A stretch of 24,217 bases of DNA from a virus, in the IMG/VR virus record IMGVR_UViG_3300046817_001311, positions 1-24,217 of that record; one strand, written 5' to 3'. Under the pieces are notes generated by a model. It worked only from the letters and a program-made list of their open reading frames with translations. It was not told where the DNA came from and searched no databases. The position numbers were made by a program, and so were the translations under genes. Position 1 is the first letter of the stretch. The number at the start of each line of letters is the position of its first letter. This document shows, one piece after another, positions 3,001-21,735 of this stretch.

Positions 3001-6000
3001 GAATCGACCGGGCTGACGCCGTGGCCGTTCAGGTAGGTCTGGAGCTCCTGGCCGAGCTGGTTGTCCTCCAGCCCCAACTTCTTGCCCGCCGCGTCCATCG
3101 CCTTGACCAGATCGTCTTCCATCCCGGCGGTCGGATGGTCGAGGTCGAGGAGCTTGAACTTTCCATCGGTCGGCTCGACCCGGTAGGTCCGGGTGCCGGA
3201 GACGGCACTCTCGTCGATCGGGTCGAAGCCACCGCGCGAGTAGTCGTAGGCGATCTCGGGGTTGTCGGTCATGTAGAGGCCGGGGCCGTACAGGCTGCCC
3301 GGGTTGCCCTCGGCGAAACCGGGGTTGGGGTGCTCGTCGTACCAGGCCTGGGTGGTGCCGTGGTACCACTGGCCCTCGGTGGCGCCGGCGGCCGGGTCGA
3401 ACATCTCGATGGGGCCGCGGGTGGTGCGGACCATGGGCGTGCCCTGGGGCACGATCTGGGCCTTGTAGGTCATCGCGTCGCTGTTGACCATCCACGCCCG
3501 CTTGCCGTTGTCCACCATCGGCTTGCCCACGCCGTACATGTCGCCGTCGCGGAACTTCATCACGTCGGCCGGGAGGTCGGCGTAGGAGTACACGCCCGAT
3601 TCCGCCGGAATCTGGGCCGCGTCCTGCCAAGGGGTCTGGAGCACCCGGCTGATGTCCTCGGCCACCTTGGGGTCCTGGAAGGCCATGGCCATGAGGGGCG
3701 TGACGCCATGCCCGGCCTCGTTGGCGTTGCGGATCATCTCGTCCCACGTCGCCGGACCGAGGTGGGCCATGGCGTTGGCGAAGGAGTCGAGATGGTCGAG
3801 ATGGTCGAGGGCGGGCGAGCTGATCTGCTGGAGACCGGTGAGGAGGTGCTCGTAGATGTTGGCGTAGATGTTGTTGGGGTCGGCCGCCGAGCTCATCAGG
3901 TTGGCGAACGCCTGCGGCTCGGCCGTGGGGAAGTACATGCGGGTCACACCGCGCGCCGGGGCCTGGGCGACCGGCATGCCCGAGGGGCTGGTGTGGGCGT
4001 AGTGGGAGCGGGTGAGCTGCGTCGTCCACTCCGGCTTGCGAGCCTCGTCGGCCAGACCGTTCTGCATGTGCTCGAGGAACTGGTCGGCCGTCTTCCACTC
4101 GGTCGGCAGCTCCTGGCCCTGGTGGGCATGGAGGAGGAGGGCGTACTGGTGTTGGAGCATGGGGTCGACGTTGATGTCGAGAAGGGGGGCGACCTTTCTT
4201 GCCTGCACCCCCCGACCGGCTTCGTTCAGCCCGGCCCGCACCGCCTTGACGATCCCCTCGGAGTCCATATCGCCCAGAGGCAGGTTGCGGTAGACGGCCT
4301 CCTGGAGCTGAGGGTCGCGGATGCGGCTGACGAGATTCTTGATGATGCGCTGGTTGGGCTCGCCGGTCTGGGATTCCACCAGAATCTGGCGCACCATCGG
4401 GTCGCCCACCGCGCTGACGGCCTCGTGCCCGGCCCGCACCGTCTCCGGGCTCAGGCCATCGGGCATGTAGTGGGTGAAGAAGTCCTGGACGGTGGGAGCC
4501 TGGAAGGGGTCCTCGACGTACTTGGAGTAGTCCGAGTGCAGGCTGCTCATGAAGGTCGGGTCCTTCTCGATGTACTTGCGCTCGAACTGGCCCCGCAGCG
4601 GCAGCATCATCTGGTCGTCGATGTTGCCCGAGCGTGGGTCCCACGTCTTGACCATCTGCCCGTAGTTGTTGCCCGTCCACTGGTTGTCCCACGGTCCCGT
4701 CCGGTTCGACGAGACTTGGGCCATCAGCCGATCGCCCACCGGCCCCGCGAACTGCTTGGCCGCGTCCACTACGTCAGGAGCCATCCCATGAAAGAACATG
4801 TCCCGTACGGAGCCCTCGGGGCTGATCAGCGTGCGCAGGCGCGGCGACAGGCCCTCCACCAGGTTCGGGGCAGCTCCGGTCTGGAGGGTGGACCGCACGA
4901 AGTCCGAATAACTACCCAAGACCTGATCGGTGAAGCTCTGGCCGAAACCGACGCGATTCGCGATGCGCTCCAACGGGCGAACGTGGGCCAGGTACCGCCA
5001 GCGCTGGAGCCGCTGAGCTTCCTGTTCGCTGAGCGCGTCCGCGCCCAGATTGCCCGCCTTCGCCGCCAGCTCGTCTGCGACCTCACCCTGACCTACGGCA
5101 CGCTCCGCGAAGGTGCGGGCGTAGGAGCCGAGGCCGGAGCGGGCGATGAAGGCCAGCATCTCGTCGCCGGCGACCCGGGGGATGAACCCGATGCGCAGAA
5201 GTACCGAGGGTTTCCACACGCGGTTCATGGCGGTGTCGATGAGGGGCGTATCGACGACGTTGAGTAGGTCGTGCATGATGCCCGACTTCATGCTCGCCCG
5301 GCGCAGCTCCTGGATGTTCGGGATGGGCAGGTCGTAAGCCTGGTCCAGCACGACGAGCTGGCCCACCGGCATGCGGCCGGCGGGCGTGTCGGCGCTGGCG
5401 TCGGACCCGAGGTAGTAGGCCTGGTTGACCTTGTCCCGGAACTTGGCGATCAGGTCCTCACCGCCCTCGATGCGGTCCACCCCGGCGCTTCTGAACCCCT
5501 CCTGCATGAACGCGGTGATGGCGTTGAGGCGCTGGCTGTCGTTCTGCCCGGCGAGGATGAAGTCCCGCCAGGCGTCGCGGGTGAGGCTGGGCATGCCCGC
5601 CGTGCGGAACATGTCGGTGAAGCGGTCGATCTCGGCTGCTGCATCGGGACTCACCAGGTTCACAGCGTCCCTCGTCGGTGCGAGACTGGTGAGACCCGAC
5701 AGCAGAGTGCCGACCTTGCGGAGGGGGTAGCCGATGACGGGGACGCCGGCTATTCCGTGGGTGGCCGAGTACAGCGTCCCAGGTTCGGGCGGTGTGATTC
5801 CAGCGGAAAACCCGAACTGGGCCAGCGTCTCGGGGTCGGTCGGGGGCAGATGGCTCTCGATGTCGGCGGTGTGGAGGAAGTCCGCCATGGTCTTCTCCAG
5901 GTCGGCGTCGTTGGAGGCGTCGATGACGGTCCCCATCAAACCCTTCACCGCGCCCCATGCTTGTCCGGTGCGTGTGATCCTCGGCAGCATCCGGACCTCA

Positions 6001-7544
6001 CCGGGCTTGGCTGCCTTCCCCACGATCAGATCGGAGAGTTGGTTGTTGTCCGAGAGCCAGCCGAGAACGTCATGACCGGTAACCGTCTCGAGATTATTTG
6101 CTCTGGCCCAATCGACGACCTTGTCGAACATTGGCTGGAGCTGCGGCGCCGTGTTCCGCAGGTCCTCGAACCCCTGAGCTCCCTGGGTAGCGGCACCGGC
6201 CAGGGTGTCGACGGTGCGGGTCCAGCTCGAATCGCGCCCGTAGAGGCTCGTCATCTTGGCCACGATTCCACCGGAATCGAGGGCGTCGAGGCCGTAGCGC
6301 GCTACGCGATAAGTCTCACTGGCTTTGGCCGCAGCGAGGGTTGGGTCGAGAGCCACGATCCAGAGGGCATCAGTGGCGCCGCTTACGAAACGACCCCAGC
6401 CCTGGGAGGGATCGAGCCCGATCGCGTGGGTCAGGTCGCGCCCGGGGCTGATCTTCCCTTCCTGGAGTGTCTGCACCGCCTGACGGAACGTTGGATCGGT
6501 CACGAGGCCCCGCAACTGTCCGTAGAAGGTGTCGTGCTGTGGCGTCCCCGGCGTGAAGGTCCGGTCCGCTATGCGCTGAATCCCTTTGTCATACGTGTTT
6601 GGATCGAGAGCGTCCCGGTTCCCGGCGAGGCTCGTGGCAATGTCGTACAGGCTCGGCTGGTCGGAGCCCCAAGCCACATCCTTGGCCAGGTTCGTCAGGC
6701 GGTCGTCGGTGAGCAGGCCGCGAGCTTTGCTCTGAGCGTCCGTCTTGAAGGTCTTCTCGCCGTCCCAGGAGGCCTGGAAGGCGTCGAACCAGTCCGATGG
6801 ATTCGTTACCGCAGCACCGGCCGTGGCCCCGAGGAGAGCCCCACCACCTATCGCAGCAGCGGTAAGACCCAGGCTGAGGCCGCCGGTGAATGGTGCCGCC
6901 GCCAGACCGGCCCCGGCGATAGCGCCGCCCGCGGCCCCGCCCAGCACCAGGCCCATGTTGGCACTGGGGTCGGTGGCGATGGCCCGGTAGGCGTGGGCGG
7001 GCTGGTCCTGAACCCAACGCAGACCTTCCATGGTCGGACCGGCTACGGCCCCGAAGGCGGCTCCGCCGGCATTAAGGGCGCCTCCGATGGCCTGGCCCAG
7101 CGGACCGGCGACGGGGCTGAGGATGCCTGAGAACCACGAGCCCTCGCTGTTCTGTGGTGGCTTGTAGCCGAGCTGGGCGGCGGCGGCCTGCTGCTGGGCC
7201 GTCATCTGGTTGTAGAGCGCCCGCTGCGCTCCCGGGCTGGAGTTCTTCAGGATGCCGAGGAAGCTGTCGAGGTTGGTGGCGGCGCCGGCGGCGGCGGCGT
7301 GGGTGGCCAGGTCGGCGTCGGAGTAGGGCGACTGGGCGAGCTGGAGCACGGCCTGGGGGTCCTTGGCCATGTCCGGCATCTGGGACAGCACCAGCTTGAA
7401 CCGGGCCGCCAGCCGCTGCTGGGAGGCGAGCGAGTTGGCCGTGCCCACCGTGGTCGGGTCGGCCACCACGTTGCGGTAGTAGGCGGTGAGGTCGGCGCCC
7501 TGGAGGTTCAGGCCCGCGGACGGCGTGCTCTGGGTGTCAGTCAC
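1..7544 (-). CDS. Giant virion-associated protein with ADP-ribosyltransferase-like segment (3' end outside window)
   Basis: One reading frame stays open for 2514 codons from a GTG at 7544 to the left edge without a stop, so the C-terminus is missing. The GTG follows GAGGAG with a 4-nt gap; the first internal ATG is over 50 codons in. Residues 135-168 and 196-245 are glycine/alanine-rich and hydrophobic, possibly membrane-inserting. Residues about 1390-1590 look ADP-ribosyltransferase-like: YHGT (H1395), GPGLYMTD (Y1424) and a late GETEHKVAIVW strand (E1569), matching the H-Y-E triad order of PARP/diphtheria-toxin types. Near residue 2009 a PFLPFQFAEENM stretch resembles, from memory, large phage internal proteins. 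It lies downstream of terminase and portal in the virion operon. I infer a virion-packaged, perhaps ejected, multidomain ('polyvalent') protein; the frame is secure, the function is not. Seven full 13-bp sites and one with a substituted right arm lie inside it. Confidence 0.85.
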   Translation of the reverse strand, partial: MTDTQSTPSAGLNLQGADLTAYYRNVVADPTTVGTANSLASQQRLAARFKLVLSQMPDMAKDPQAVLQLAQSPYSDADLATHAAAAGAATNLDSFLGILKNSSPGAQRALYNQMTAQQQAAAAQLGYKPPQNSEGSWFSGILSPVAGPLGQAIGGALNAGGAAFGAVAGPTMEGLRWVQDQPAHAYRAIATDPSANMGLVLGGAAGGAIAGAGLAAAPFTGGLSLGLTAAAIGGGALLGATAGAAVTNPSDWFDAFQASWDGEKTFKTDAQSKARGLLTDDRLTNLAKDVAWGSDQPSLYDIATSLAGNRDALDPNTYDKGIQRIADRTFTPGTPQHDTFYGQLRGLVTDPTFRQAVQTLQEGKISPGRDLTHAIGLDPSQGWGRFVSGATDALWIVALDPTLAAAKASETYRVARYGLDALDSGGIVAKMTSLYGRDSSWTRTVDTLAGAATQGAQGFEDLRNTAPQLQPMFDKVVDWARANNLETVTGHDVLGWLSDNNQLSDLIVGKAAKPGEVRMLPRITRTGQAWGAVKGLMGTVIDASNDADLEKTMADFLHTADIESHLPPTDPETLAQFGFSAGITPPEPGTLYSATHGIAGVPVIGYPLRKVGTLLSGLTSLAPTRDAVNLVSPDAAAEIDRFTDMFRTAGMPSLTRDAWRDFILAGQNDSQRLNAITAFMQEGFRSAGVDRIEGGEDLIAKFRDKVNQAYYLGSDASADTPAGRMPVGQLVVLDQAYDLPIPNIQELRRASMKSGIMHDLLNVVDTPLIDTAMNRVWKPSVLLRIGFIPRVAGDEMLAFIARSGLGSYARTFAERAVGQGEVADELAAKAGNLGADALSEQEAQRLQRWRYLAHVRPLERIANRVGFGQSFTDQVLGSYSDFVRSTLQTGAAPNLVEGLSPRLRTLISPEGSVRDMFFHGMAPDVVDAAKQFAGPVGDRLMAQVSSNRTGPWDNQWTGNNYGQMVKTWDPRSGNIDDQMMLPLRGQFERKYIEKDPTFMSSLHSDYSKYVEDPFQAPTVQDFFTHYMPDGLSPETVRAGHEAVSAVGDPMVRQILVESQTGEPNQRIIKNLVSRIRDPQLQEAVYRNLPLGDMDSEGIVKAVRAGLNEAGRGVQARKVAPLLDINVDPMLQHQYALLLHAHQGQELPTEWKTADQFLEHMQNGLADEARKPEWTTQLTRSHYAHTSPSGMPVAQAPARGVTRMYFPTAEPQAFANLMSSAADPNNIYANIYEHLLTGLQQISSPALDHLDHLDSFANAMAHLGPATWDEMIRNANEAGHGVTPLMAMAFQDPKVAEDISRVLQTPWQDAAQIPAESGVYSYADLPADVMKFRDGDMYGVGKPMVDNGKRAWMVNSDAMTYKAQIVPQGTPMVRTTRGPIEMFDPAAGATEGQWYHGTTQAWYDEHPNPGFAEGNPGSLYGPGLYMTDNPEIAYDYSRGGFDPIDESAVSGTRTYRVEPTDGKFKLLDLDHPTAGMEDDLVKAMDAAGKKLGLEDNQLGQELQTYLNGHGVSPVDSIGNAYRLTLDDHLVDATNPSDLGVLLSKEVPKELAGMGYDGFGHIGGGIVGETEHKVAIVWDPESAWVTGVNQGGMKIPFGPKVPGMSYEDAVQERMQSLADKINTKFRAGVREDRVMPTKALQQAYDEEGNMTQQLHSNIYSHDGVQYPAGQAMNEDPPQGFRDEAGNFVDPREIPWEYRLRDNGDRRILHEILAPMVMDSMDDEKGFRTMEKGARVLRSSVKDVIDSSGTDLPNVALGPVYTQIKGNTFWDRAVRFGFNRVIGPAVDAIIRKPLAFHNFSIAYRDGMASLDWLRNPELLDALDRIAPGLDATTSGSLVRMAARQAQAANEGTLSSVEDVNHWLRGLGSTPQDAISALADRATQLRAAGKDGLAEENLTLQAHMPHLWPDASNRPGDRLLTAWDDMMPAAAKRRIPSEWSDAVAADVRNSMGPAMHAVVSDDNNAKLLMTASEEKRNLVTHVTDQAIEQAVNMTMPFVHSHQFRSQFADQAKPFLPFQFAEENMVKRWAKTLRIAPEAIEKGRLAYDGMKSGGLIQTDANGQDWFVYPGSGLLTEALGHVPGFGSVLGTGALMKTQPSAMLPGLQEFGAPRATPLLSVPIGLIGSQFPDLKPVQDALLGPSGTNKGVLRAFFPSSVVNLVDAFTADDSNGKYAAAMMAAAKILQANGQGLPENASDLDVQDFLRKLRGHARTLLVAQALTGFITPGSPTLSQTGNPGSLMAQLTGAGVDDPAGVMDADYLQIVRNMGIQAGTAQYLAEHPNVDPWQAYNTLALTEPNTKTPSGARIPITQGSIDFYDANKNWINANPNAGPWFIPPAKPGDPANEIDRGAYDDQLANDLRVRQTPEEFVRSMYFKVAAQPYFNASDSYKYMLAQAKTTAQKQAMTATWGRWQQDYLAAHPLFATELQTGSGSQRRQETIKEMRVAVNDPQAPQAWHTQSLKTLQDSWDTYNAMTIRYSADRKQSSQNQLAAVKLEFDRWVNTFVLSHPEVEGYWDSVL
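942..954. repeat. 13-bp palindromic site 1
   Basis: TTTCC-GGA-GGAAA. Inside the giant gene, which uses it as D-F-L-R-K codons. Confidence 0.6.
1742..1754. repeat. 13-bp palindromic site 2
   Basis: ATTCC-GAT-GGAAT, giant gene, read as RIPSEW. Confidence 0.85.
2462..2474. repeat. 13-bp palindromic site 3
   Basis: ATTCC-CAT-GGAAT, giant gene, read as EIPWEY. Confidence 0.85.
2775..3377 (-). other. ADP-ribosyltransferase-like domain within the giant protein
   Basis: This segment (residues about 1390-1590) starts with GQWYHGTT, continues with GPGLYMTDNPEIAYDYS, and ends with GYDGFGHIGGG and EHKVAIVWDPES. In the ART superfamily the first His lies in an HGT/HGS turn, the Tyr in a G-[LI]-Y strand, and the Glu before a terminal beta strand. 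H1395, Y1424 and E1569 are candidates for these. The domain call is from motif recognition only; no profile search was possible. Confidence 0.6.
2992..3004. repeat. 13-bp palindromic site 4
   Basis: TTTCC-GAT-GGAAT, giant gene, read as DSIGN. Two extra near-misses lie at about 3161 and 6792. Confidence 0.8.
3599..3611. repeat. 13-bp palindromic site 5
   Basis: ATTCC-GCC-GGAAT, giant gene, read as QIPAES. Confidence 0.9.
4373..4385. repeat. 13-bp palindromic site 6 (one mismatch)
   Basis: ATTCC-ACC-AGAAT, giant gene, read in the third codon phase as ILVES. Confidence 0.7.
5797..5809. repeat. 13-bp palindromic site 7
   Basis: ATTCC-AGC-GGAAA, giant gene, read as FSAGI. Confidence 0.75.
6265..6277. 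repeat. 13-bp palindromic site 8
   Basis: Consensus ATTCC-ACC-GGAAT, giant gene, read as DSGGI. Confidence 0.95.
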
Positions 7545-8145: not shown

Positions 8146-10158
8146 TCACTGCCCGGCCTTTAGGGCGAGCATGACCCGCTTCAGCCCGGCCTGGTCGGGG
8201 TTCGGCCCGACGTTGGCGCTAGGGGCCATCATGCCGGTGGGCGTGCCCGGCCCCGGTGCGGCCTGGCCCGGCATCGGCTGCATGGCGCCCAGTCCCCCGA
8301 CCGGCGGCGGCATTCCACCGGAATCAGGCGCTCCCGGCGGGGGCGGTCCGCCACCGGGGATGCCCGGCGCTCCCGGAGGCCCGGCGCCCGCTCCGGCCTG
8401 AGCCTGGTTCTGGGCCGCCATCTCCGCTTCCTGGGCTGCCTTCACCCGCTCCAGCGCGTGCTGGTAGGCGGCGAAGCCGTTGACGCCCTTGGCCAGCTCG
8501 TCGTCGAGGAACAGGCCGAGCTCGGGCGGAGCCTGGCCGCTGGCGATCTGGACGTTGATGGCCCGCTTCTGGGCATCCCACAGGTCCTCGCGGTCCAGGT
8601 CGACCCGCACCTGCTCCTCGTCCTCGACCAACGGGTGGCGCCTCCGGGCGTCGGCCATGGAGATCAGCTTCGAGGCGCTCATCTGCTCCAGCATCACCGT
8701 CGTCGTCTGGAGGTTGGCGCCCGCCACCGGGTAGGTGACGGTGTTCTCGTAGCTCTCCTCCAGATGCACGCTGGGGGTGAACTCCACGTGCTTGCGACTG
8801 CCCTGCCAGCCGGTGAACATCGTGTAGGTCTTGTCGGGCCAGTGGCCCACGTAGCAGTGGGAGACGGCCTTGTTCAGGATGGGTAGGTAGGTCTGCATGA
8901 TCTCGTGCAGCTCGAGGATCTTGGGGTCGATCGACATCGACGCCATGGTGTCGAGGCCCCGGCCGGTGCGCAGGCCGTTGCTGTTCTCGCCGTTCATCAT
9001 CGGGGCCGAGTCGATGTTGAGGTTGGCGTCGCGCTCCATGCGGTCGTTGATCGTCTCGATCTGCATGTCGGGCGTGGGCCGGATCATGTCGAGCTTGGCC
9101 ACGCCCTTCAGGAGGTTGATGTTGCCAGTGCGGCCGTCCTGCCACTGACCGCCACCGGAGACGATCTCGGGAACCCGGCCGTCGGCACCGATGGCGTACA
9201 GCGTGGGCCAGATGCCCTTCTCGGCGGCGAGGATGTGGAGCGCCCGTAGCTTGGCCTGGAGGTCGACGATGCCCACGACGTTGGCCATGTGGCTGACGAG
9301 GCGGTCGAGGGTGACCCGCTCAGGGACGATGACGGGAACCATGCCGGCCCGGTTGGGGAACCGGCATATCTCCATCCACGGCTGGGAGCTGTAGGCGTCC
9401 GCGATGTGATCGCCGGCCTGCTCGATGGGACCCATGAGGCCGTAGACGATGGACTCCTCGTCGAACCACTCCAGCGTCTGCCACGACTGCCAGGTGTCGT
9501 CGGTGGAGATGGGGCCGCCCATCTCCTCGCGCAGCTTGGGGAAGGCCATGCGCAGCTCCTCGCCGCTGCGGCGGAAGATGAAGCCGCAGTCGTAGGGCTC
9601 GCGCACGATCTCGATGGACTTCTCCTCGGGGAGGCAGGCCAGCGGATTGCGAATCTCGATGCGGGGCCGACCCTCCTTGAAGTCGGGGACGACCACGAAG
9701 CAGCACGTGGCGTAGGCGGCCAGATGGCGGTAGGCCCGGCGCCGGGTCAGCATGAAGCTGTTGGCGTACCACGTGGCCGACCATGCCTGGCGACGGGTGT
9801 TGGCGTAGCCCAGGCTGCCCTTGCCCACCATCAGGTTGGGCTTCACCGCGGGAGCCCAGATGGACTCCAGGACACTCGAGGCCTGAACGGCGAGGTTGTC
9901 GGTGGCGTTGGCGATGATGGCCGGCGTCAGCGGCGGCAGGAGCGGCTCGCCCTCAGCCGAGGTGACGGGCAGCACCCAGGTCCCGTTGTAGCGGGCGAGG
10001 ACGTCCTCCATCCCCGAGAACAGGGGCGAGCGGTTGGCCTGGCGGGTGCGCACGATCGAGTTGATCTTGCCGTAGGGCAGGCCGAAGGGCGGATGCTCGG
10101 GGTCGTAGGCACCCGGCATGAACGAGGAGATTCCACCGGAATACGCCACCGTGCTCAA
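8146..10158 (-). CDS. Portal protein
   Basis: Predicted portal, which forms the dodecameric ring at the capsid vertex through which DNA is packaged and ejected. The frame is open further upstream, but that part overlaps terminase and is not protein-like. I favour TTG at 10158, preceded by GGGAG with a 7-nt gap and overlapping the terminase stop (TTGA), giving 670 aa; GTG at 10149 is an alternative. Portal-like features are the position directly after terminase, the size, a mixed alpha/beta body, a helical stretch around 'LVSHMANVVGIVDLQAKLRAL', and a Pro/Gly-rich tail (about the last 88 residues, GGGPPPPGAP). 13-bp sites fall in codons 6-10 and in the tail. Confidence 0.8.
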   Translation of the reverse strand: MSTVAYSGGISSFMPGAYDPEHPPFGLPYGKINSIVRTRQANRSPLFSGMEDVLARYNGTWVLPVTSAEGEPLLPPLTPAIIANATDNLAVQASSVLESIWAPAVKPNLMVGKGSLGYANTRRQAWSATWYANSFMLTRRRAYRHLAAYATCCFVVVPDFKEGRPRIEIRNPLACLPEEKSIEIVREPYDCGFIFRRSGEELRMAFPKLREEMGGPISTDDTWQSWQTLEWFDEESIVYGLMGPIEQAGDHIADAYSSQPWMEICRFPNRAGMVPVIVPERVTLDRLVSHMANVVGIVDLQAKLRALHILAAEKGIWPTLYAIGADGRVPEIVSGGGQWQDGRTGNINLLKGVAKLDMIRPTPDMQIETINDRMERDANLNIDSAPMMNGENSNGLRTGRGLDTMASMSIDPKILELHEIMQTYLPILNKAVSHCYVGHWPDKTYTMFTGWQGSRKHVEFTPSVHLEESYENTVTYPVAGANLQTTTVMLEQMSASKLISMADARRRHPLVEDEEQVRVDLDREDLWDAQKRAINVQIASGQAPPELGLFLDDELAKGVNGFAAYQHALERVKAAQEAEMAAQNQAQAGAGAGPPGAPGIPGGGPPPPGAPDSGGMPPPVGGLGAMQPMPGQAAPGPGTPTGMMAPSANVGPNPDQAGLKRVMLALKAGQ
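8312..8324. repeat. 13-bp palindromic site 10
   Basis: Consensus ATTCC-ACC-GGAAT in the portal tail, read as DSGGM. Confidence 0.95.
10130..10142. repeat. 13-bp palindromic site 11
   Basis: Consensus ATTCC-ACC-GGAAT in portal codons 6-10 (YSGGI). Confidence 0.95.
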
Positions 10159-11945
10159 GGTCTCGCTCCCACCGGGATGATCAGGTTCGGCTTCTGGTAG
10201 CTGAACATCGAGGCGCCAGTGTGCCATCCGTTGGGGCTGCGGAACGGCACCTTGGTGTTGAGGCGCCAGTGAATCCACACGAACCACAGCGCCATCACCA
10301 GGTCCTGACGGAGCCGGTTGCCTCGGAACTTCAGGTTGCCTCGCATCTCGTCGGCGTTGGTGCGGAAGCTGTAGAACTGGTTGATCAGCTCCTGCACCAT
10401 GTCACGGGTGTAGCGGTCGTCGGGATGCCAGGGCAGGTCGAACTCGCGGGACTTGAAGGTGTGCAGCATCGACAGGACGCCGATGTCCTCGTCCCACTTG
10501 TTGATGCCGGTCAGATGCTCGTAGAGCTCGCAGTGGTAGGCGTCGGCCAGCTTGGTGAGGCGCTCGTCGCGCGCCAGCCCAGCCTGGAAGTTCTTGGCCT
10601 CGATGATGATGCGGCTCACCAGCGCCCCCTGGGCGGTCTGGGACATCAGCTCCATCTCGACCTGCTCGATGATCTCCTCGTTGGTCTGGAGGCCTTCGGC
10701 CTCGCGCATCCCCGTCAGTTTGATTCCGTTGGAAACCTCGCAGGCGATGACGGCGTTGCGCCCTCCGATGGCGGGATCGAGGCCGATCCACACGATCCCC
10801 GGCAGCGGCTCCAGCTTCCGCTGGGAGTTGAGGCATGGTCCGATGTCGGCAGTGGTGAAGTGCCGGTTGCGGCTGACCATCTCGGGCTGCTGCATCCAGT
10901 TGCGGTACCAGGCGTCGTCACCGACCTTGGCCTTCATGTCCTCCAGGGCCTCCATCGTCCAGCGCCCCGGCCACAACGGCTCCAGGTTGCCCTGGTGGCC
11001 CCGGACCACGCACGGCATCTTGATGACGCGCATGAGCGGAGGACGGCCTCCCGACCTCGGTGCCGTCAGATCCTTGTCGGAGCTGAGGCGCCAGTACACG
11101 TCGTCGTCGGTGACGCGGTTGCCGAACACGGTGGTACGGCCCTCGTCGGCCGGTCGGCTCAGCCAGTCCTGCCGGAACTTGCGCTCGATCTCGGAGGTCT
11201 GCCCGGCGGTCTGGGCGTCCTGCAGGTCGTCACCGTGGAGGTGGTTGGTACGGATCGAGGCGAGGCTGGCCGTCATGCCCACCGCCTGGATCGAGTAGTC
11301 GCGGTCGGAGCCCTTGGGCTTCTGGGCCACGTTGAAGTAGCTGGCGCTCCATATCTGCTTGTTGGCGCCGGGACCGGTCAGCTTGAACGGCCCGTACTTG
11401 GCCAGATAGCGCGAGAAGCCCGAGTCGGGCTCCATGCGGGCCTTGATGCGGCCCAGCACCTTCTTGGCGTGGTCGACCTTGTTCATGCCTACCGTGGCCA
11501 TCCACGACGGGTCCATGGCCAGCTTCATCCCGGCGTAGTCCTCGAACAGGGTGGTCTTGCCGTGGAGAGGGGCGAACAGGACCAGGAGTATCTGGCCCGG
11601 CGCCATCGTCTCCAGCTCCTTGATGACTTCGAGGTGGAACGGGGGCGAGTGGTGGTCGAACATCTCTAGGCGGAACTGGGCGAAGTCGATGGCGGTGCCG
11701 AACTCCTTGCGGACCGACTCCTCTCGGCCGATCTTGGCCTTGGCCTTCAGCATGTCGACCTCGTTGCCGAAGTCGGGCCAGCGCACCCGCCACTGCCGGT
11801 AGGCCGTCATGGAGATACCGGCCGCCTTCAGGCCACCGTTGACGGTCCCCTCGGCCTCCAGCCCCTCCAGAAACTGCCGGCGCCGGCGCTTGGCCGCTTC
11901 GTAGTTGAAGTTGGCCCCGCCCGTCATCTTCCCCGGAGTGCTCAT
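10155..11945 (-). CDS. Terminase large subunit (packaging ATPase-nuclease)
   Basis: The 596-aa product is full length for a TerL, the motor that translocates DNA into the prohead through the portal and cuts it. The N-terminal 40-60 (GGLKAAGISMTAYRQW) resembles a helix-turn-helix. The ATPase has a Walker A-like APLHGKTT at 125-132 and an acidic LHGDDLQDA at 236-244 in the Walker B region. The C-terminal RNase H-like nuclease shows its acidic residues in IGLDPAIGG (D390), IIIEAKNF (E449) and LRQDLVMAL (D548). The ATG at 11945 overlaps the stop of the 58-aa gene (ATGA) and the stop overlaps the portal start. A 13-bp site lies just upstream of the start and another within the nuclease part. Confidence 0.92.
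   Translation of the reverse strand: MSTPGKMTGGANFNYEAAKRRRRQFLEGLEAEGTVNGGLKAAGISMTAYRQWRVRWPDFGNEVDMLKAKAKIGREESVRKEFGTAIDFAQFRLEMFDHHSPPFHLEVIKELETMAPGQILLVLFAPLHGKTTLFEDYAGMKLAMDPSWMATVGMNKVDHAKKVLGRIKARMEPDSGFSRYLAKYGPFKLTGPGANKQIWSASYFNVAQKPKGSDRDYSIQAVGMTASLASIRTNHLHGDDLQDAQTAGQTSEIERKFRQDWLSRPADEGRTTVFGNRVTDDDVYWRLSSDKDLTAPRSGGRPPLMRVIKMPCVVRGHQGNLEPLWPGRWTMEALEDMKAKVGDDAWYRNWMQQPEMVSRNRHFTTADIGPCLNSQRKLEPLPGIVWIGLDPAIGGRNAVIACEVSNGIKLTGMREAEGLQTNEEIIEQVEMELMSQTAQGALVSRIIIEAKNFQAGLARDERLTKLADAYHCELYEHLTGINKWDEDIGVLSMLHTFKSREFDLPWHPDDRYTRDMVQELINQFYSFRTNADEMRGNLKFRGNRLRQDLVMALWFVWIHWRLNTKVPFRSPNGWHTGASMFSYQKPNLIIPVGARP
10723..10735. repeat. 13-bp palindromic site 12
   Basis: ATTCC-GTT-GGAAA in terminase, read as VSNGI. 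Confidence 0.75.
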
Positions 11946-15673: not shown

Positions 15674-16033
15674 TCAGCTTCCCACATTTCCGGTGGAATG
15701 AAACGTGTGGAAAGAGACCTCGAACCTCATGGTCTCGCCCGTCCGCGGGTTGTAGACGGCGCGCCAGGTGGGGAAATGACGCGTAGAAGGGGGAGGAGGG
15801 GTGGCCCACCAGGGAAGGTCGAACTCGGTGGGGGGCAACGGGATCATGTGCTGGTCGGGCCAGAGGGAATGGTCCACCAACTGCGCCCGTTCCCAGGCCC
15901 GTTCGAGGTATTCCATGTGGTCGAGGAGCCGGTTCATCTGCTCCCAGTCCACCGGCTTGGCCCTCTCGCCGGTGGAGAGGTGCAGACCCTCGTCGTGGTA
16001 GATGCCACAACGTCCGCAGGCGATGCTAGCCAT
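15674..16033 (-). CDS. 119-aa protein with N-terminal CxxC
   Basis: ATG 16033 overlaps the end of the Acb2-like gene by 8 bp. The product starts MASIACGRCGIYHDEG, with one CxxC plus a histidine, has a helical Glu/Arg-rich middle (LDHMEYLERAWERAQ) and a Pro-rich stretch (WWATPPPPSTRHFP), then RAVYNPRTGETMRFEVSF. A single CxxC could be half of a zinc site. No family is recognised. The last codons contain a 13-bp site (HSTGN). Confidence 0.65.
   Translation of the reverse strand: MASIACGRCGIYHDEGLHLSTGERAKPVDWEQMNRLLDHMEYLERAWERAQLVDHSLWPDQHMIPLPPTEFDLPWWATPPPPSTRHFPTWRAVYNPRTGETMRFEVSFHTFHSTGNVGS
15687..15699. repeat. 13-bp palindromic site 17
   Basis: TTTCC-GGT-GGAAT (ACC spacer on the minus strand), last codons of the 119-aa gene and 19 bp upstream of the membrane-peptide start. 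Confidence 0.9.
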
Positions 16034-16253
16034 TGAGGACGAGGCCCTTCACCGCCCACATGGTCGTTTCCTCGAGATGGGTGATGGCCAGGCTCCGCTC
16101 TCGGCTGCCAGGCACCAGGCGCAGGATCACCTCGCCCAAAGCCTTGGCCTCCTCGCGCACCGCCTCGATCAGCTCGATCGTCTCGGTGGAGGGCGTCACA
16201 TTGGTCAGGCTGCGGTTCAGGTTGGCGATCAGGTCTTCGACAGTGGGCTCCAT
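16026..16253 (-). CDS. Acb2/Tad1-like hairpin protein, candidate cyclic-nucleotide sponge (anti-CBASS/anti-Thoeris)
   Basis: The 75-aa product has a short polar N-terminus and two helices separated by a turn: ELIEAVREEAKALGEVILRLVP and then SRERSLAITHLEETTMWAVKGL. The pattern 'E..ALG..I...P.SRERSLA.T.LEE..MWA' is what I recall for the Acb2/Tad1 hairpin family. Acb2 oligomers bind cyclic di-/trinucleotides and block CBASS; Tad1-type proteins bind Thoeris signals. This is the first gene of the leftward operon, with AAAGG 7 nt before ATG 16253. Recognition is from memory of the family pattern; ligand specificity cannot be read. Confidence 0.7.
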   Translation of the reverse strand: MEPTVEDLIANLNRSLTNVTPSTETIELIEAVREEAKALGEVILRLVPGSRERSLAITHLEETTMWAVKGLVLNG

Positions 16254-16276
16254 GGCCTACCTTTCACTCGGGGGAA

Positions 16277-16306
16277 CCAGGAGAGGGACTGTAGTACCCC
16301 TCCTGG
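16277..16306. repeat. Inverted repeat in the divergent region
   Basis: CCAGGAG pairs with CTCCTGG, then one A/A mismatch, then GGG with CCC, around an 8-nt loop ACTGTAGT. There is no T-tract, so an operator is more likely than a terminator. Confidence 0.5.
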
Positions 16307-16391
16307 CTCTACCCCGAGATGGTCCACCACCGGGATGAGACGGTGGTATACCGTGGTCACGCCAGCAACCATGGCTGACTGTAGCCCCTCC
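16287..16391. repeat. Two-copy direct repeat GACTGTAG-(TA)-CCCCTCC
   Basis: GACTGTAG occurs at 16287-16294 and 16377-16384, each followed by CCCCTCC (16297-16303 and 16385-16391). The copies are 90 bp apart and differ by a 2-nt insertion. They could be paired regulator sites in the divergent promoter region. Confidence 0.4.
16326..16347. repeat. Inverted repeat ACCACCG / CGGTGGT
   Basis: A 7-bp perfect inverted repeat with an 8-nt loop, overlapping ACGGT-N5-ACCGT and the palindrome GGTATACC (16345-16352). The nested dyads suggest an operator in the divergent region. Confidence 0.4.
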
Positions 16392-16491
16392 GGACTCACC
16401 ATCCGGACATGGGATCCTCGTAACCGGGAACGGGCAGGTCGAGCTATGCCAGTACGGCGGCTCGGAAACAAGGTGAACGGAGTGCGTGTGA

Positions 16492-16534
16492 GCCGAGCGA
16501 GAATCGGCCGGGAGTCCGGGTGTGGCAACCGGAC
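16492..16534 (+). repeat. Two leader hairpins upstream of the first rightward gene
   Basis: GCCGA (16492-16496) pairs with TCGGC (16504-16508) across a 7-nt loop. GTCCGG (16514-16519) pairs with CCGGAC (16529-16534) across a 9-nt loop. They end 37 bp before ATG 16572 and may fold in its mRNA leader. They do not form a tRNA: no T-arm or acceptor stem is present. Confidence 0.35.
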
Positions 16535-16571
16535 GGGCGTGGTTGTGCGCGTCCCGGATGAAAGGAACCCG

Positions 16572-16793
16572 ATGTCCCTACCCAAGTACGTGACCCTGGC
16601 GGATGGAACGCTGGCCCAGGTGATCCACGACTCTGACGTTCCGATCGACAAGGCCTACCTGCTCAGGCGAGCCGACTGGCCGACACCCGATCCGGCCGAG
16701 TGGATGAAGTGGTGCCTCCACTGCGACCGCTGGCACCCCACGAACTTCTGGGGTCGTGAAGTCCCCGAGTCCCCCAAGATTCCACCGGAATAG
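16572..16793 (+). CDS. 73-aa CxxC protein, first gene of the rightward arm
   Basis: ATG 16572 is preceded by AAAGGA with a 5-nt gap. The frame is open far upstream, but this start is the only one with a Shine-Dalgarno signal. The product (MSLPKYVTLADGTLAQVIHD) contains a WCLHCDRWHP segment with C48, C51 and H55, a partial zinc-knuckle pattern common in small phage regulators. It ends KIPPE, where the final codons and stop are formed by a 13-bp palindromic site. No specific family is recognised. Confidence 0.65.
   Translation: MSLPKYVTLADGTLAQVIHDSDVPIDKAYLLRRADWPTPDPAEWMKWCLHCDRWHPTNFWGREVPESPKIPPE
16779..16791. repeat. 13-bp palindromic site 18
   Basis: Consensus ATTCC-ACC-GGAAT; forms the last codons and first base of the stop of the 73-aa gene. 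Confidence 0.95.
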
Positions 16794-16946
16794 CCGTCAC
16801 CCGCACGGTCGTACTACCTGACCACGTTCAGAATCGCCCCCCGTCCAGGCACATCGCCCTTGAGGCTCGTGCCTTTGGACTCCTCAGTGGTGAGCCTGAG
16901 CCAAGGCTGGTGGAGGTGGCTCAGGACGAGCTTTCGGAGCTGCCAA

Positions 16947-16975
16947 AACTTGGTCAGGCAACTCCTGACCAAGTT
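16947..16975. repeat. Perfect 12-bp inverted repeat, 5-nt loop
   Basis: AACTTGGTCAGG is followed by CAACT and the exact complement CCTGACCAAGTT. No T-tract follows. This is the strongest stem in the gene-free region. Confidence 0.8.
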
Positions 16976-17004
16976 CCTCGCCACTGCCTGCACATACACG
17001 CAGT

Positions 17005-17024
17005 CGATGCACATCAGTGCATCG
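17005..17024. repeat. Perfect 8-bp inverted repeat, 4-nt loop
   Basis: CGATGCAC, loop ATCA, GTGCATCG. It lies 29 bp after the 12-bp hairpin. Confidence 0.7.
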
Positions 17025-17178
17025 GCCGTGGTGCATGCGCTGGTGGTAGCGCACCAGGGTGAAGCCCTCGGGGCGGGCGGCCCACCGACATCGAGGAGGC
17101 TCGCTGCGCTCGCGGTTCCTCGGATTGCTCCTGGTGAAGACTCGCCGTGGGCCGTTCGTAGGACGGCTTGCACCCTTG

Positions 17179-17190
17179 CTGAACGTTCAG
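17179..17190. repeat. 12-bp palindrome CTGAACGTTCAG
   Basis: A perfect palindrome without a loop, so it fits protein dimer binding or intermolecular RNA pairing rather than a hairpin. Confidence 0.5.
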
Positions 17191-17214
17191 TTGGAAGGCT
17201 TCGCACGTGTCTGC

Positions 17215-17238
17215 GCACGAGCCACCGAAGGCTCGTGC
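17215..17238. repeat. Perfect 9-bp inverted repeat, 6-nt loop
   Basis: GCACGAGCC, loop ACCGAA, GGCTCGTGC. Confidence 0.7.
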
Positions 17239-17268
17239 ACCTCGTCGCTCGCTGGCGCTCCTCCTCGT

Positions 17269-17320
17269 GCGGTGATTCCCCGCCGTGGGTCCGAGCTGCG
17301 AAGCGGTTCGGAATCACCGC
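17269..17320. repeat. Long-range 11-bp stem enclosing a small GNRA-like hairpin
   Basis: GCGGTGATTCC (17269-17279) pairs perfectly with GGAATCACCGC (17310-17320). Inside, GCT-GCGA-AGC (17295-17304) would cap a short stem with a GNRA tetraloop if transcribed rightward. Confidence 0.7.
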
Positions 17321-17384
17321 GGTGGATTGTATCCGCGCGCGTTGGGGGGCTGAGCCTCCGTGCGTCAAGCATGACTCTGGCCAC

Positions 17385-17397
17385 ATTCCTTCGGAAT
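17385..17397. repeat. 13-bp palindromic site 19
   Basis: ATTCC-TTC-GGAAT in the hairpin-rich gene-free region, extended to CATTCC/GGAATG. The spacer is atypical, so it may be an RNA stem instead of a family member. Confidence 0.6.
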
Positions 17398-17565
17398 GGC
17401 GCCTGCGGCTTGCCCAGACTCACGCTGGACCCACTGGTCCGGGGTGCTACGACGGGTGAAGTTCGGAGAACGGGTGAGGTCGCAGGCGGGAAGGATGTGG
17501 GGGAGGGGTAGTTGATGATGAGGATGCGGGTCAGGTCGATCCGCTCCAGCCTGAGGAGGCACGAA

Positions 17566-18327
17566 ATGACTGTTATCCGTAGCTCCAACCGACCCGAGGG
17601 CATCGAGGTCGAGGAAGCCAAGCCGAGGTTCGACATCACCCGGTTGACGACGGCGACACCGAAGGTGGACGCGGTGGTGGCCACGCAGTTCCTGGCCCGC
17701 TGGGTCGACGGTTACGTCGGCGCTGACGGTGCCACCGATGCTCACGTCGTCCGCTGGAACGGCGGCGAGGAGGTCGAGGTGGATCAGGCACTGGTCCAGT
17801 TCGGCCGTGAGTTCGTCGTGAAGGACATGGCGCCCCGCACCATGCGTTTCCTGTGGAATCTCGCCCGGGATCGTGAGCGTCAGCTCGGGATGCCGGTGGT
17901 GCTGGCCGAGTCCGACGAGGACCAGTTCCAGTCCGACGCGCCCCACGTGTACTTCGTGGACGTCAGCGACTGGGAGCGCAAGGCGGCGTTCTCGGAGATT
18001 TGCGCCGCTCGGGGCATGACCACCGACGAGCTCGAGGTCATCGCCCTGGTCTACGTCCCCCAGCCCGGTTCGGGGTGGGTGGGCAAGGACGGTCGGAGGC
18101 GGGTCTCACAGCTCGACTCCGACGTCCAGTTCCTGCTGCCCATGGTCGCACCGTTGCGCCAGGGCCAGGGCGAGACGTGGTTCCATCTGGTCCGGCTGTG
18201 CGTGCGCACGCTGTGGGCGGAGGCCAACCGGCCGGTGCGGGACGTGGGCAACGTTCCGCTCGACAGCCTCGACGAGGCAGAGCTGGCCAGCCTGATGGGC
18301 TTGGCCGAAGACGACGAGCCGTTCTGA
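17566..18327 (+). CDS. 253-aa protein with SSB-like acidic C-terminal tip
   Basis: Translation starts at ATG 17566 after GAGGAGG with a 6-nt gap; the more upstream ATGs lack a signal and give an Arg/Met-rich extension. The product shows no catalytic motif I recognise. Its middle (ALVYVPQPGSGWVGKDGRRR, then WFHLVRLCVRTLWAEAN) looks globular. The last ten residues, MGLAEDDEPF, end in the acidic-Pro-Phe pattern used by bacterial SSB to recruit repair and replication partners; the SSB encoded in this window ends NEEPF. I infer a role in phage DNA replication or recombination. A strong terminator follows 8 bp after the stop. Confidence 0.8.
   Translation: MTVIRSSNRPEGIEVEEAKPRFDITRLTTATPKVDAVVATQFLARWVDGYVGADGATDAHVVRWNGGEEVEVDQALVQFGREFVVKDMAPRTMRFLWNLARDRERQLGMPVVLAESDEDQFQSDAPHVYFVDVSDWERKAAFSEICAARGMTTDELEVIALVYVPQPGSGWVGKDGRRRVSQLDSDVQFLLPMVAPLRQGQGETWFHLVRLCVRTLWAEANRPVRDVGNVPLDSLDEAELASLMGLAEDDEPF
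17847..17859. repeat. 13-bp palindromic site 20
   Basis: TTTCC-TGT-GGAAT in the 253-aa gene, read in the third phase as RFLWN. Confidence 0.7.
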
Positions 18328-18334
18328 GGACCCG

Positions 18335-18376
18335 GCCCGGTGGGGGGAGCGACAGCTCCTCCTGCCGGGCTTTCTT
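18335..18376 (+). terminator. Intrinsic terminator after the 253-aa gene
   Basis: GCCCGGTGGGGGGAGC pairs over 16 positions (three G-U) with GCTCCTCCTGCCGGGC across a GACA loop, followed by TTTCTT. Confidence 0.85.
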
Positions 18377-18397
18377 CGCGGGCGGGTCCTGGGTCTC

Positions 18398-18444
18398 GCA
18401 CCCTCCTCCCCTACAGACCCTCCTCAGGCGGGGGAGGGGGGTGC
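18398..18444. repeat. 14-bp inverted repeat between terminator and next gene
   Basis: GCACCCTCCTCCCC (18398-18411) pairs with GGGGAGGGGGGTGC (18431-18444), with one G-U, around a 19-nt loop. There is no T-tract after it on the plus strand. It may act as a leader structure or backup terminator upstream of the 131-aa gene. Confidence 0.5.
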
Positions 18445-18485
18445 CGGGCTCAGGGCCGCCGATACCAAGTGACGAGGAGGACACG

Positions 18486-18881: not shown

Positions 18882-18886
18882 GAGTT

Positions 18887-18923
18887 CTGAACCCTGTATC
18901 AGCGCAAGCTGTACGGGGTTCAG
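18887..18923 (+). repeat. Long intercistronic hairpin capped by a GCAA tetraloop
   Basis: CTGAACCCTGTA pairs with TACGGGGTTCAG (one G-U). After a single bulged T, CAGC pairs with GCTG around a GCAA (GNRA) loop, giving 16 pairs in all. It lies 5 bp after the 131-aa stop with no T-tract behind it, so an RNA-stability or regulatory hairpin is more likely than a simple terminator. Confidence 0.7.
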
Positions 18924-18951
18924 GCGCGGACCACTACCCGAGGAGGACGAC

Positions 18952-19254
18952 ATGTTTGCTTCAGCCATCGCGGTGGGCATCGCCACCGCGCTCAGCATCA
19001 CGCCGGTGCACCACCACAAGCCACCGGTCAAAGTGGTGGTCTCCCAGGCCTACGTCGATTCCGGCGGAATCACGGACGTGAGCCCGCCCACGCGCATGGA
19101 CGTCGTGATGACGGCCCGCTGGGACGGCAACGTCGTGCCCCGGGCCGAGATCGCCTGGTGCCTCGACTCGGGGGGCGAGCTGATCGCCTACCCGCTGCAC
19201 TGGAACTACCGGCCCCTGCGGGGACGGTTGGTGTGCGAGGGGGTGGACTACTGA
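18952..19254 (+). CDS. 100-aa exported or membrane-tethered small protein
   Basis: ATG 18952 follows GAGGAGG with a 6-nt gap. The N-terminus MFASAIAVGIATALSITPVH is a short hydrophobic, signal-like segment, although it lacks the usual basic N-region. The remainder (VKVVVSQAYVDSGGITDVSPP, MTARWDGNVVPRAEIAWCL, RGRLVCEGVDY) is beta-rich with two cysteines that could pair outside the cytoplasm. No family is recognised. It forms its own cassette between a GNRA hairpin and a terminator. A 13-bp site encodes DSGGIT. Confidence 0.7.
   Translation: MFASAIAVGIATALSITPVHHHKPPVKVVVSQAYVDSGGITDVSPPTRMDVVMTARWDGNVVPRAEIAWCLDSGGELIAYPLHWNYRPLRGRLVCEGVDY
19058..19070. repeat. 13-bp palindromic site 22
   Basis: ATTCC-GGC-GGAAT in the 100-aa gene, read as DSGGI. 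Confidence 0.9.
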
Positions 19255-19299
19255 TGTGAACGATGCAGGCGTGCCCACGCTTCGACAGGCGCCGTGGAT

Positions 19300-19331
19300 G
19301 AGCCCGATGGCCTATGGCTGTCGGGCTCTTT
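19300..19331 (+). terminator. Intrinsic terminator after the 100-aa gene
   Basis: GAGCCCGA pairs with TCGGGCTC, with a smaller GCC/GGC pairing inside the loop, followed by TTT. Confidence 0.6.
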
Positions 19332-19358
19332 CCGCGGACTACTACCAGGGAGGTCAGG

Positions 19359-20211: not shown

Positions 20212-20372
20212 CTGCACTGGGAGCGGTGATCCTGATTGCCGCTCTCGCAGGGTTCAGAATGTTCAGGAGGCACCAGCGCCGTCGCTGGAGGGGCACACCG
20301 CCCTCATCAACCCAAGGAGCTTTCAGTGGCAAACGGAAACACCATCAGCATCATCGGGAACCTCACCCGTGA
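20208..20372 (+). CDS. Possible 54-aa membrane peptide overlapping the SSB start
   Basis: GTG 20208 overlaps the SLOG stop as GTGA. The frame encodes a hydrophobic helix (TALGAVILIAALAGF) followed by a strongly basic stretch (RMFRRHQRRRWRG), a plausible single-pass membrane peptide. It continues 47 bp into the SSB gene, where it becomes His-rich and unlike protein. There is no clear Shine-Dalgarno. It fills the otherwise empty gap before ssb, but chance cannot be excluded. Confidence 0.35.
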   Translation: MTALGAVILIAALAGFRMFRRHQRRRWRGTPPSSTQGAFSGKRKHHQHHREPHP

Positions 20373-20742
20373 CCCGGAGCTGCGGTTCACCACCAGCGGC
20401 CGGGCCGTCGTCCAGTTGGGCGTGGCCGTCAACGACCGCTACCAGGTCAACGGCGAATGGCAGGAGCGGGTCAACTTCTTCGACGTCACCGCCTGGGCGC
20501 AGCTCGGGGAGAACGTCGCCGCCAGCTTGGTCAAGGGCGACCGGGTGGCCATCCAGGGCCGCCTCGTCTACCGCAACTGGGAGACGGCCGAGGGCGACAA
20601 GCGCTCCAAGGTCGAGCTGACCGCCGACTCGGTGGCGCCCGACATGCGCTTCGCCACCGTCACCATCGAGAAGAACGAGCGGACCAGCTCGGGCGGCGGC
20701 GACGCCACTCCGGCCGAGCTCTACAACGAGGAGCCCTTCTAG
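20326..20742 (+). CDS. ssb: Single-stranded DNA-binding protein
   Basis: The 138-aa product coats single-stranded DNA during phage replication and recombination. GTG 20326 follows AAGGAG with a 6-nt gap and gives the expected start MANGNTISIIGNLTRDPELRF. The OB-fold shows the usual landmarks: GRAVVQLGVAVND, VNFFDVTAWAQLGENVAASL, KGDRVAIQGRL and KVELTADSVAPD. A short Ser/Gly linker leads to the acidic tip YNEEPF, which recruits partner proteins. It is slightly shorter than host SSBs because the linker is short. A UUCG-loop terminator follows immediately. Confidence 0.95.
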   Translation: MANGNTISIIGNLTRDPELRFTTSGRAVVQLGVAVNDRYQVNGEWQERVNFFDVTAWAQLGENVAASLVKGDRVAIQGRLVYRNWETAEGDKRSKVELTADSVAPDMRFATVTIEKNERTSSGGGDATPAELYNEEPF

Positions 20743-20748
20743 CCGGCC

Positions 20749-20777
20749 AGCCCGGGGACTTCGGTCCTCGGGCTTTC
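20749..20777 (+). terminator. Intrinsic terminator with UUCG tetraloop after ssb
   Basis: AGCCCGGGGAC, loop TTCG, GTCCTCGGGCT (one G-U), then a short T run. Confidence 0.85.
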
Positions 20778-20821
20778 GCCGCGGCCCCACAAGGGCATTC
20801 ACACATAGCAACTACAACCGA

Positions 20822-20856
20822 GGCGGCGGGGCGACAAGGCATCGGTCCCCGCCGCC
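20822..20856 (+). repeat. Perfect 10-bp GC hairpin upstream of the 67-aa gene
   Basis: GGCGGCGGGG pairs with CCCCGCCGCC around a 15-nt loop that contains CGA and TCG able to extend pairing. No T-tract follows. It lies between the ssb terminator and the 13-bp site at 20864. Confidence 0.55.
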
Positions 20857-20863
20857 ATGGTCG

Positions 20864-20876
20864 TTTCCACCGGAAA
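20864..20876. repeat. 13-bp palindromic site 25, intergenic
   Basis: TTTCC-ACC-GGAAA between a GC hairpin and the Shine-Dalgarno of the 67-aa gene. Confidence 0.9.
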
Positions 20877-20915
20877 CGCAGTCGGCCTCACGATGCCAGT
20901 GACGAGGAGGCAACC

Positions 20916-21626: not shown

Positions 21627-21660
21627 TCTGGCGTCGAGCGAGTGCCCGCTCCGCCGGACC

Positions 21661-21698
21661 GAGAACCCCGCCCGGACCCCAACCGGAGCGGGGTTCTC
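21661..21698 (+). terminator. Perfect 11-bp hairpin, probable terminator lacking a T-tract
   Basis: GAGAACCCCGC pairs exactly with GCGGGGTTCTC around a 16-nt loop that itself holds CCGG/CCGG. No U run follows (GCGCGAGC), so termination is uncertain; it sits where neighbouring cassettes have terminators. Confidence 0.5.
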
Positions 21699-21707
21699 GC
21701 GCGAGCT

Positions 21708-21720
21708 ATTCCACCGGAAT
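21708..21720. repeat. 13-bp palindromic site 27, intergenic
   Basis: Consensus ATTCC-ACC-GGAAT, 9 bp after a hairpin and 3 bp before AAGGAGG of the 120-aa gene. Confidence 0.95.
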
Positions 21721-21735
21721 CACAAGGAGGCAATG

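Follow-up and report, generated by a model that had tools for sequence, protein, structure and literature searches.

A hairpin-rich, non-coding element where the late and early arms of a probable actinobacteriophage meet

A gene-free region near the start of the early arm

What kind of element occupies positions 16794-17565 of a 24217-base IMG/VR virus record, where no gene is found, and does it work as RNA, as DNA, or not at all? The record, which we refer to in its entirety as the window, derives from an uncultivated phage, probably with an actinobacterial host. Its late arm (left) lies on the - strand and its early arm (right) on the + strand, with the two diverging at 16254-16571. In the late arm, the terminase large subunit (10155-11945, -; phrog_38, E 4e-28), which served as the anchor for finding relatives, is ~22-24% identical to its closest named relatives, mostly from Streptomyces phages (Beephvirinae), and the adjoining 8146-10287 product has Streptomyces phage portal proteins as its closest named relatives. 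In the right arm, the anchor was a single-strand binding protein (SSB; 20236-20742, +; PF00436, E 4e-30). The first gene of the + arm is a 73-aa ORF with a CxxC motif (16572-16793, +), ending 1 base 5' of the gene-free region. The next gene (17566-18327, +), preceded by a GAGGAGG Shine-Dalgarno-like motif, encodes a 253-aa protein of unassigned function for which family searches returned no family match.

The divergent intergenic region, as delimited by gene calls (16254-16571), contained no recognizable sigma-70-like consensus site, and a search for promoter and terminator consensus sequences likewise recognized none. A 52-bp imperfect palindrome (16267-16318, detected as a self-inverted match) is located immediately 5' of the first - strand gene (16026-16253) and, judging from its sequence, could be a candidate late-operon leader hairpin or operator.

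A protein-coding reading of 16794-17565 was ruled out. Codon log-odds were negative in all six frames across the region, and the long ORFs inside it scored -0.11 to -0.36 per codon vs +0.31 for the next gene; no frame was conserved, and a Pfam search of these ORFs yielded no match. The region was instead strongly enriched in predicted structure. Perfect Watson-Crick stems with 8 or more bp and loops no longer than 45 nt numbered 6 in the region vs 0.69 expected; none of 300 dinucleotide shuffles reached that count, and no other 772-nt tile had more than 3 such stems, tiles overlapping the region excepted. The minimum free energy (MFE) of the region was -396 kcal/mol on the + strand (z -5.9) and -360 kcal/mol on the - strand (z -5.2), and its folding z was the lowest among all 700-nt tiles (about -6 on +, from -5 to -7 on -). 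An earlier note on this DNA had described the region as gene-free, with at least ten inverted repeats and perfect stems of 12, 11, 9, and 8 bp; all of this holds, the listed stems being present and 16 inverted-repeat pairs being listed for 16700-17650. The same note regarded the surrounding arm as otherwise densely coded. The right arm does, however, include other non-coding spacers, of ~90-170 nt, so that the region is the most extreme member of a series and not a solitary gap. Overall, a strongly structured, non-coding element is present at the late/early junction.

Hairpin spacers of the early arm

Five of these spacers, 91-173 nt in length, displayed a folding signal that favored the sense strand, with z+ from -3.3 to -5.6 vs z- from -1.0 to -2.5: 18328-18485 (z+ -5.6, z- -1.2), 18882-18972 (z+ -3.3, z- -1.7), 19255-19358 (z+ -3.3, z- -1.0; a stem followed by TTT), 20743-20915 (z+ -4.0, z- -2.5; 3' of the SSB gene, where TTT follows a hairpin capped by a CUUCGG tetraloop), and 21627-21732 (z+ -4.2, z- -1.4). 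When a weaker sixth is counted, the + strand was favored in 6/6 early-arm spacers. Every early spacer tested carried hairpins, the arms of which appeared mutually unrelated by inspection.

The reading that we favor, at a probability of roughly 40%, is that the region lies between cistrons of the early (+) transcript as a structured segment acting in cis, which fits this spacer series, the lack of sequence conservation, and the different next genes of relatives (see below). The rightward early transcript would run through 16794-17565, between the first small ORF and the gene at 17566, and the segment, once transcribed, would adopt a compact, many-branched fold of ~700 nt. The folded segment would then insulate and stabilize, or process, the early mRNA in cis, and this effect would set the expression of 16572-16793 relative to the downstream genes, making the region a much enlarged counterpart of the hairpins that separate the following genes. 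We infer the transcription of the region and its cis-acting role from a set of observed features, namely its non-codingness, its excess structure, the sense-biased spacer series, synteny, and compensatory evolution in one pair of relatives. An RNA role of the element has moderate support.

The early spacers also recall the extended start-associated sequences (ESAS) of cluster K mycobacteriophages, which are inverted repeats located before the ribosome-binding sites of right-arm genes and which share a common 17-bp consensus plus a 13-bp start-associated repeat, GGGATAGGAGCCC (PMC3203893). An identical GTGACGAGGAGG is found at 18469-18480 and 20899-20910, ahead of two starts and each time within or after a hairpin spacer, so that both hairpin placement and a start-proximal repeat resemble the ESAS arrangement. 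Unlike in ESAS, however, inspection shows no kinship among the hairpin arms of the spacers, the start-proximal repeat is GTGACGAGGAGG, exact at two sites only, and the large region is many-branched; judged from the spacer arms and these two sites, the combination of a common 17-bp consensus with GGGATAGGAGCCC is not found here.

Syntenic junction gaps in related phages

No alignable relative of the region's own sequence was found in any collection searched. A BLAST search against phages and plasmids returned no match, a covariance model of 16885-17071 retrieved itself plus insignificant matches only, and 396 genomes from the phylum of the single bacterial contig with a distant terminase yielded only chance matches of 25-72 nt. 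Scans with the proteins flanking the gene-free region recovered no relatives. The region's own element is unalignable to anything because the contigs of the closest relatives stop short of it: the one with a 98% identical terminase (L002) ends at the stop of its 73-aa ORF (L002:1-91, corresponding to window position 16793, 1 base before the region), and the one with a 60% identical terminase (L019) reaches only 416 bases upstream of the first gene. In L002, the 73-aa ORF is 73% identical over 55 aa, with its stop at the same position. The contigs of L019, L134, L138, L158, L165, and L167 likewise end in or near the junction, and this clustering of contig ends perhaps indicates that the region assembles badly.

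More distant relatives were informative by position. Six phage records (G003-G008) encode the SSB plus a 44% identical terminase, and a wider terminase scan identified 70 loci. Among relatives with a 39-44% identical terminase, a non-coding gap of 0.9-3.3 kb occurs at the same divergent late/early junction wherever the contig spans it (G003-G008, L169, L174, L185, and L161), with sizes of 3.1 kb in G003, 2.0 kb in G004 and in G006, 1.6 kb in G008, 0.9 kb in G005, 1.85 kb in L169, 2.8 kb in L174, 3.3 kb in L185, and 1.26 kb in L161. The gaps of G003, G004, G005, and G006 contain windows with folding z below -4, those of L161, L174, and L185 are locally structured, and those of L165, L167, and L169 weakly so. 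We infer that these gap elements are true counterparts of the 16794-17565 element. Most of the gaps are mutually unalignable, including those of G006 and G008 despite a 98% identical flank.

Individual gaps showed further palindromic features. The L161 gap (L161:1200-2900) includes a ~95-bp imperfect palindrome of very low folding energy (z -11.8), and the junction gap of L174 is occupied by a ~1.9-kb imperfect palindrome (L174:5861-7762, ~72% identity). The inverted match in L174 was considered as a second copy of an RNA and rejected, as it consists of an early gene (5900-6574, -) plus its decayed inverted copy.

Compensatory change in one pair of relatives

The sole long alignable gap pair is G003/G004, over ~1.1 kb with 85% identity outside gaps. 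RNAalifold on this pair identified 24 base pairs changed on both sides with pairing kept, some of them in the downstream coding end. When the structure was instead taken from G003 alone and restricted to the non-coding part, we counted 17 compensated double changes vs 1 broken, whereas 500 rounds of reshuffled substitutions averaged 2.9 and never exceeded 8. With G004 as the reference the signal was weak (6 double changes kept, 11 lost, null mean 2.3). Since the changes cluster in a modest number of helices, G003/G004 amounts to one strong comparison rather than a deep alignment, and since the region itself has no alignable relative, the covariation sought by the earlier note is limited to a syntenic element of unrelated sequence, in which it is seen from one reference and weak from the other. 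The late-arm stretch flanking the G003/G004 element showed no compensatory signal, and other short alignable gap pairs gave weak or mixed results. G003 carries an entire 16-bp hairpin, its loop A-rich (L132 ~3828-3877), that G004 lacks, with a clean boundary. Although the elements of G003 and G004 can be aligned, their downstream next genes differ.

These patterns bear on whether the structure is functional at all. The junction could be a neutral or weakly constrained hypervariable site, at which mutational processes (inverted duplication, quasi-palindrome-correcting template switching) create hairpins and apparent compensation without function. This would fit the extreme variability beside 98%-identical flanks, as well as the near-perfect stems of relatives, which include few G-U pairs and show one-sided changes without strand bias, and the decayed inverted duplication of ~1.9 kb in the L174 gap indicates that such events occur there. 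Yet a structured gap persists at the same place among compact genomes whose terminases are 39-44% identical, and substitution in G003/G004 is slower in stems (0.13) than at unpaired sites (0.20). The compensatory changes also hit several distant stems, including a long-range pair (columns 802/1114), and the sense-strand bias of the neighboring spacers is not what neutral hairpins would lead one to expect. We thus regard a neutral origin as unlikely.

Predicted fold and comparison to known RNA families

On the + strand, the region is predicted to fold into a core spanning 16813-17512, in which weaker outer helices (16813-16819/17506-17512, P 0.80; 16822-16829/17493-17500, P 0.64) enclose a central many-branched domain (16836-17350) closed by GCCCCCC/GGGGGGC (P 0.95). 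Eight nearly linker-free arms make up this domain: 16843-16880, 16885-16986, 16989-17035, 17036-17053, 17054-17071, 17072-17284, 17285-17317, and 17318-17341. A further 3' arm (17400-17488, +) combines a 12 + 4 bp stem with an inner hairpin at 17421-17446 (P 0.90-0.99). Overall, 46% of bases had a pairing probability >0.9 on the + strand vs 20% in shuffles, and 30% on the - strand. The perfect 12-bp stem forms the hairpin 16947-16975 (16947-16958/16964-16975, +; AACTTGGTCAGG / CCTGACCAAGTT), the 10-bp core of which, with a 3-8 nt loop, was absent from all IMG/VR contigs in a pattern search. The inverted-repeat list also includes the 11-bp stem (17269-17279/17310-17320), two 9-bp stems (16895/16917 and 17215/17230), and the 8-bp stem (17005/17017). 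The listed repeats are not all formed together: in the MFE structure, the 11-bp repeat and arm 17072-17284 compete with each other.

The earlier note had interpreted the region as a large ornate RNA akin to GOLLD and ROOL. The structured element stands, while the kinship is unsupported: Rfam returned no match on the window at gathering thresholds, nor on 16253-17650 up to E 10, no GOLLD or ROOL match was detected in relatives' junction gaps up to E 1, and loose thresholds gave chance matches only. A tRNA scan found 0 in the window and none in 13 of 15 relatives' loci, the exceptions being L174 (1) and L185 (2), where tRNAs are ~1 kb or more from the gaps. The unpaired bases of the region are not A-rich. 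GOLLD, a large RNA (often >800 nt) with an elaborate, multi-branched structure, occurs in gene-free parts of phage and prophage genomes (PMC12286853), and the element resembles it in size class, gene-free phage setting, and, by predicted fold, many-branched architecture. It differs in that GOLLD is frequently associated with tRNAs, whereas there is no tRNA island here and no conserved 3' half among relatives' gaps, and a GOLLD assignment was rejected given the lack of both a covariance-model match and tRNAs. With ROOL it shares the character of a large phage-borne structured RNA without assigned function, but there is no model match, on which ground this assignment was also rejected, and conserved sequence and pseudoknots are undemonstrated for this element. 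The region is thus not a member of a known RNA family.

An element outside these families could still work in the manner of GOLLD or ROOL, whose discrete, abundant transcripts form homo-oligomeric particles; it would then be a processed, abundant, trans-acting ornate RNA made early and folded into a defined 3D particle. The size (~700 nt here, ~1.1 kb in G003/G004), the closed, many-branched, and almost linker-free folds, the compensatory changes in G003/G004, and the gene-free phage location would all be consistent with such an RNA. Against it, there is no Rfam match at any threshold used, the sequence is not conserved even between G006 and G008, tRNAs are lacking from the window and from most of the relatives' loci that were scanned, and no horizontal copy was found. 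Together with unpaired bases that are not A-rich, this makes a trans-acting particle rather improbable.

Strand assignment and DNA-level alternatives

The cis-acting early-transcript segment that we prefer places the structure on the + strand, and the evidence for this strand is mixed overall. In the region itself, the + strand is favored by the pair definition, by G-U content (18/201 confident pairs on + vs 8/135 on -), by gene orientation, since the flanking genes are both on the + strand with no coding signal between them, and by the neighboring spacers. A census of tetraloops in junction regions counted 5 cUNCGg on + and 0 on -, of which ~3 are independent and none lies in 16794-17565. However, the strand z of the region is -0.3, i.e., energies give no preference, the - strand of G003 folds better (z -12.8 vs -9.7 on +), and one-sided changes in relatives show no G-U bias towards +; a test based on unpaired A gave no signal. 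We assign the large element to the + strand provisionally, and the mixed strand evidence means that DNA-level explanations, as well as the neutral hairpin junction discussed above, keep some weight.

The main DNA-level explanation, which the earlier note had named as its alternative, is a replication origin, with the stems acting either as DNA hairpins bound by an initiator or as initiator RNA in RNA-primed replication, as in some cluster A mycobacteriophages. RNA-based actinophage origins are ~400-600 bp, non-coding, and of low sequence identity (PMC7157519), and the cluster A prophage origins of the Alma, LadyBird, and RedRock type are expressed and adjoin parABS (PMC7157519). The element is similar in size, in poor sequence conservation, and in its position in the non-structural arm, at a non-coding junction adjoining the early arm, and its two strands fold about equally. 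A ParB-like protein is encoded in the same arm of G005. In the window, on the other hand, there is little to support an origin: 16254-17565 contains no tandem repeat, GC is 0.61-0.67 throughout with no AT-rich stretch, no DnaA-box-like site occurs in the region, and, in this 24-kb fragment, no ParA/ParB or Rep was found among the right-arm proteins scanned, unlike the parABS found alongside the cluster A origins. The 12-bp palindrome CTGAACGTTCAG (17179-17190), flagged earlier as a potential initiator-binding site, occurs as exactly one exact copy in the window and lies outside any confident helix. We accordingly doubt that the region is an origin. Among the relatives, the G006 gap includes five iteron-like AACCGATT repeats (L197:1187-1232), also visible in G008, which on sequence grounds represent a possible candidate replication origin.

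Implications for the detection of large phage RNAs

Beyond this locus, the junction elements may represent a new class of large structured phage RNAs (0.35-1.1 kb) that evolve very fast and keep a fixed position at the late/early junction in a lineage of uncultivated phages, in which selection would act on fold or hairpin density and not on sequence, although we give this generalization a low probability. Provided that the structure has a function, searches by RNA family would miss such elements entirely, because their sequence turns over between phages with 98% identical flanks, and positional synteny combined with folding statistics would offer a route to finding them. Because it keeps to a single junction and has known neighbors, the element also lends itself to testing what large phage RNAs are for. 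A pattern derived from the G003/G004 RNA matched only G003 and G004 plus three chance matches. Finally, the hypervariable gaps of L132, L134, L138, L139, L142, and G004 share a 113-nt element, 75-92% conserved, that includes two TGTAC motifs, has the late-arm flank on one side and the structured part on the other, and looks like a candidate promoter or operator.
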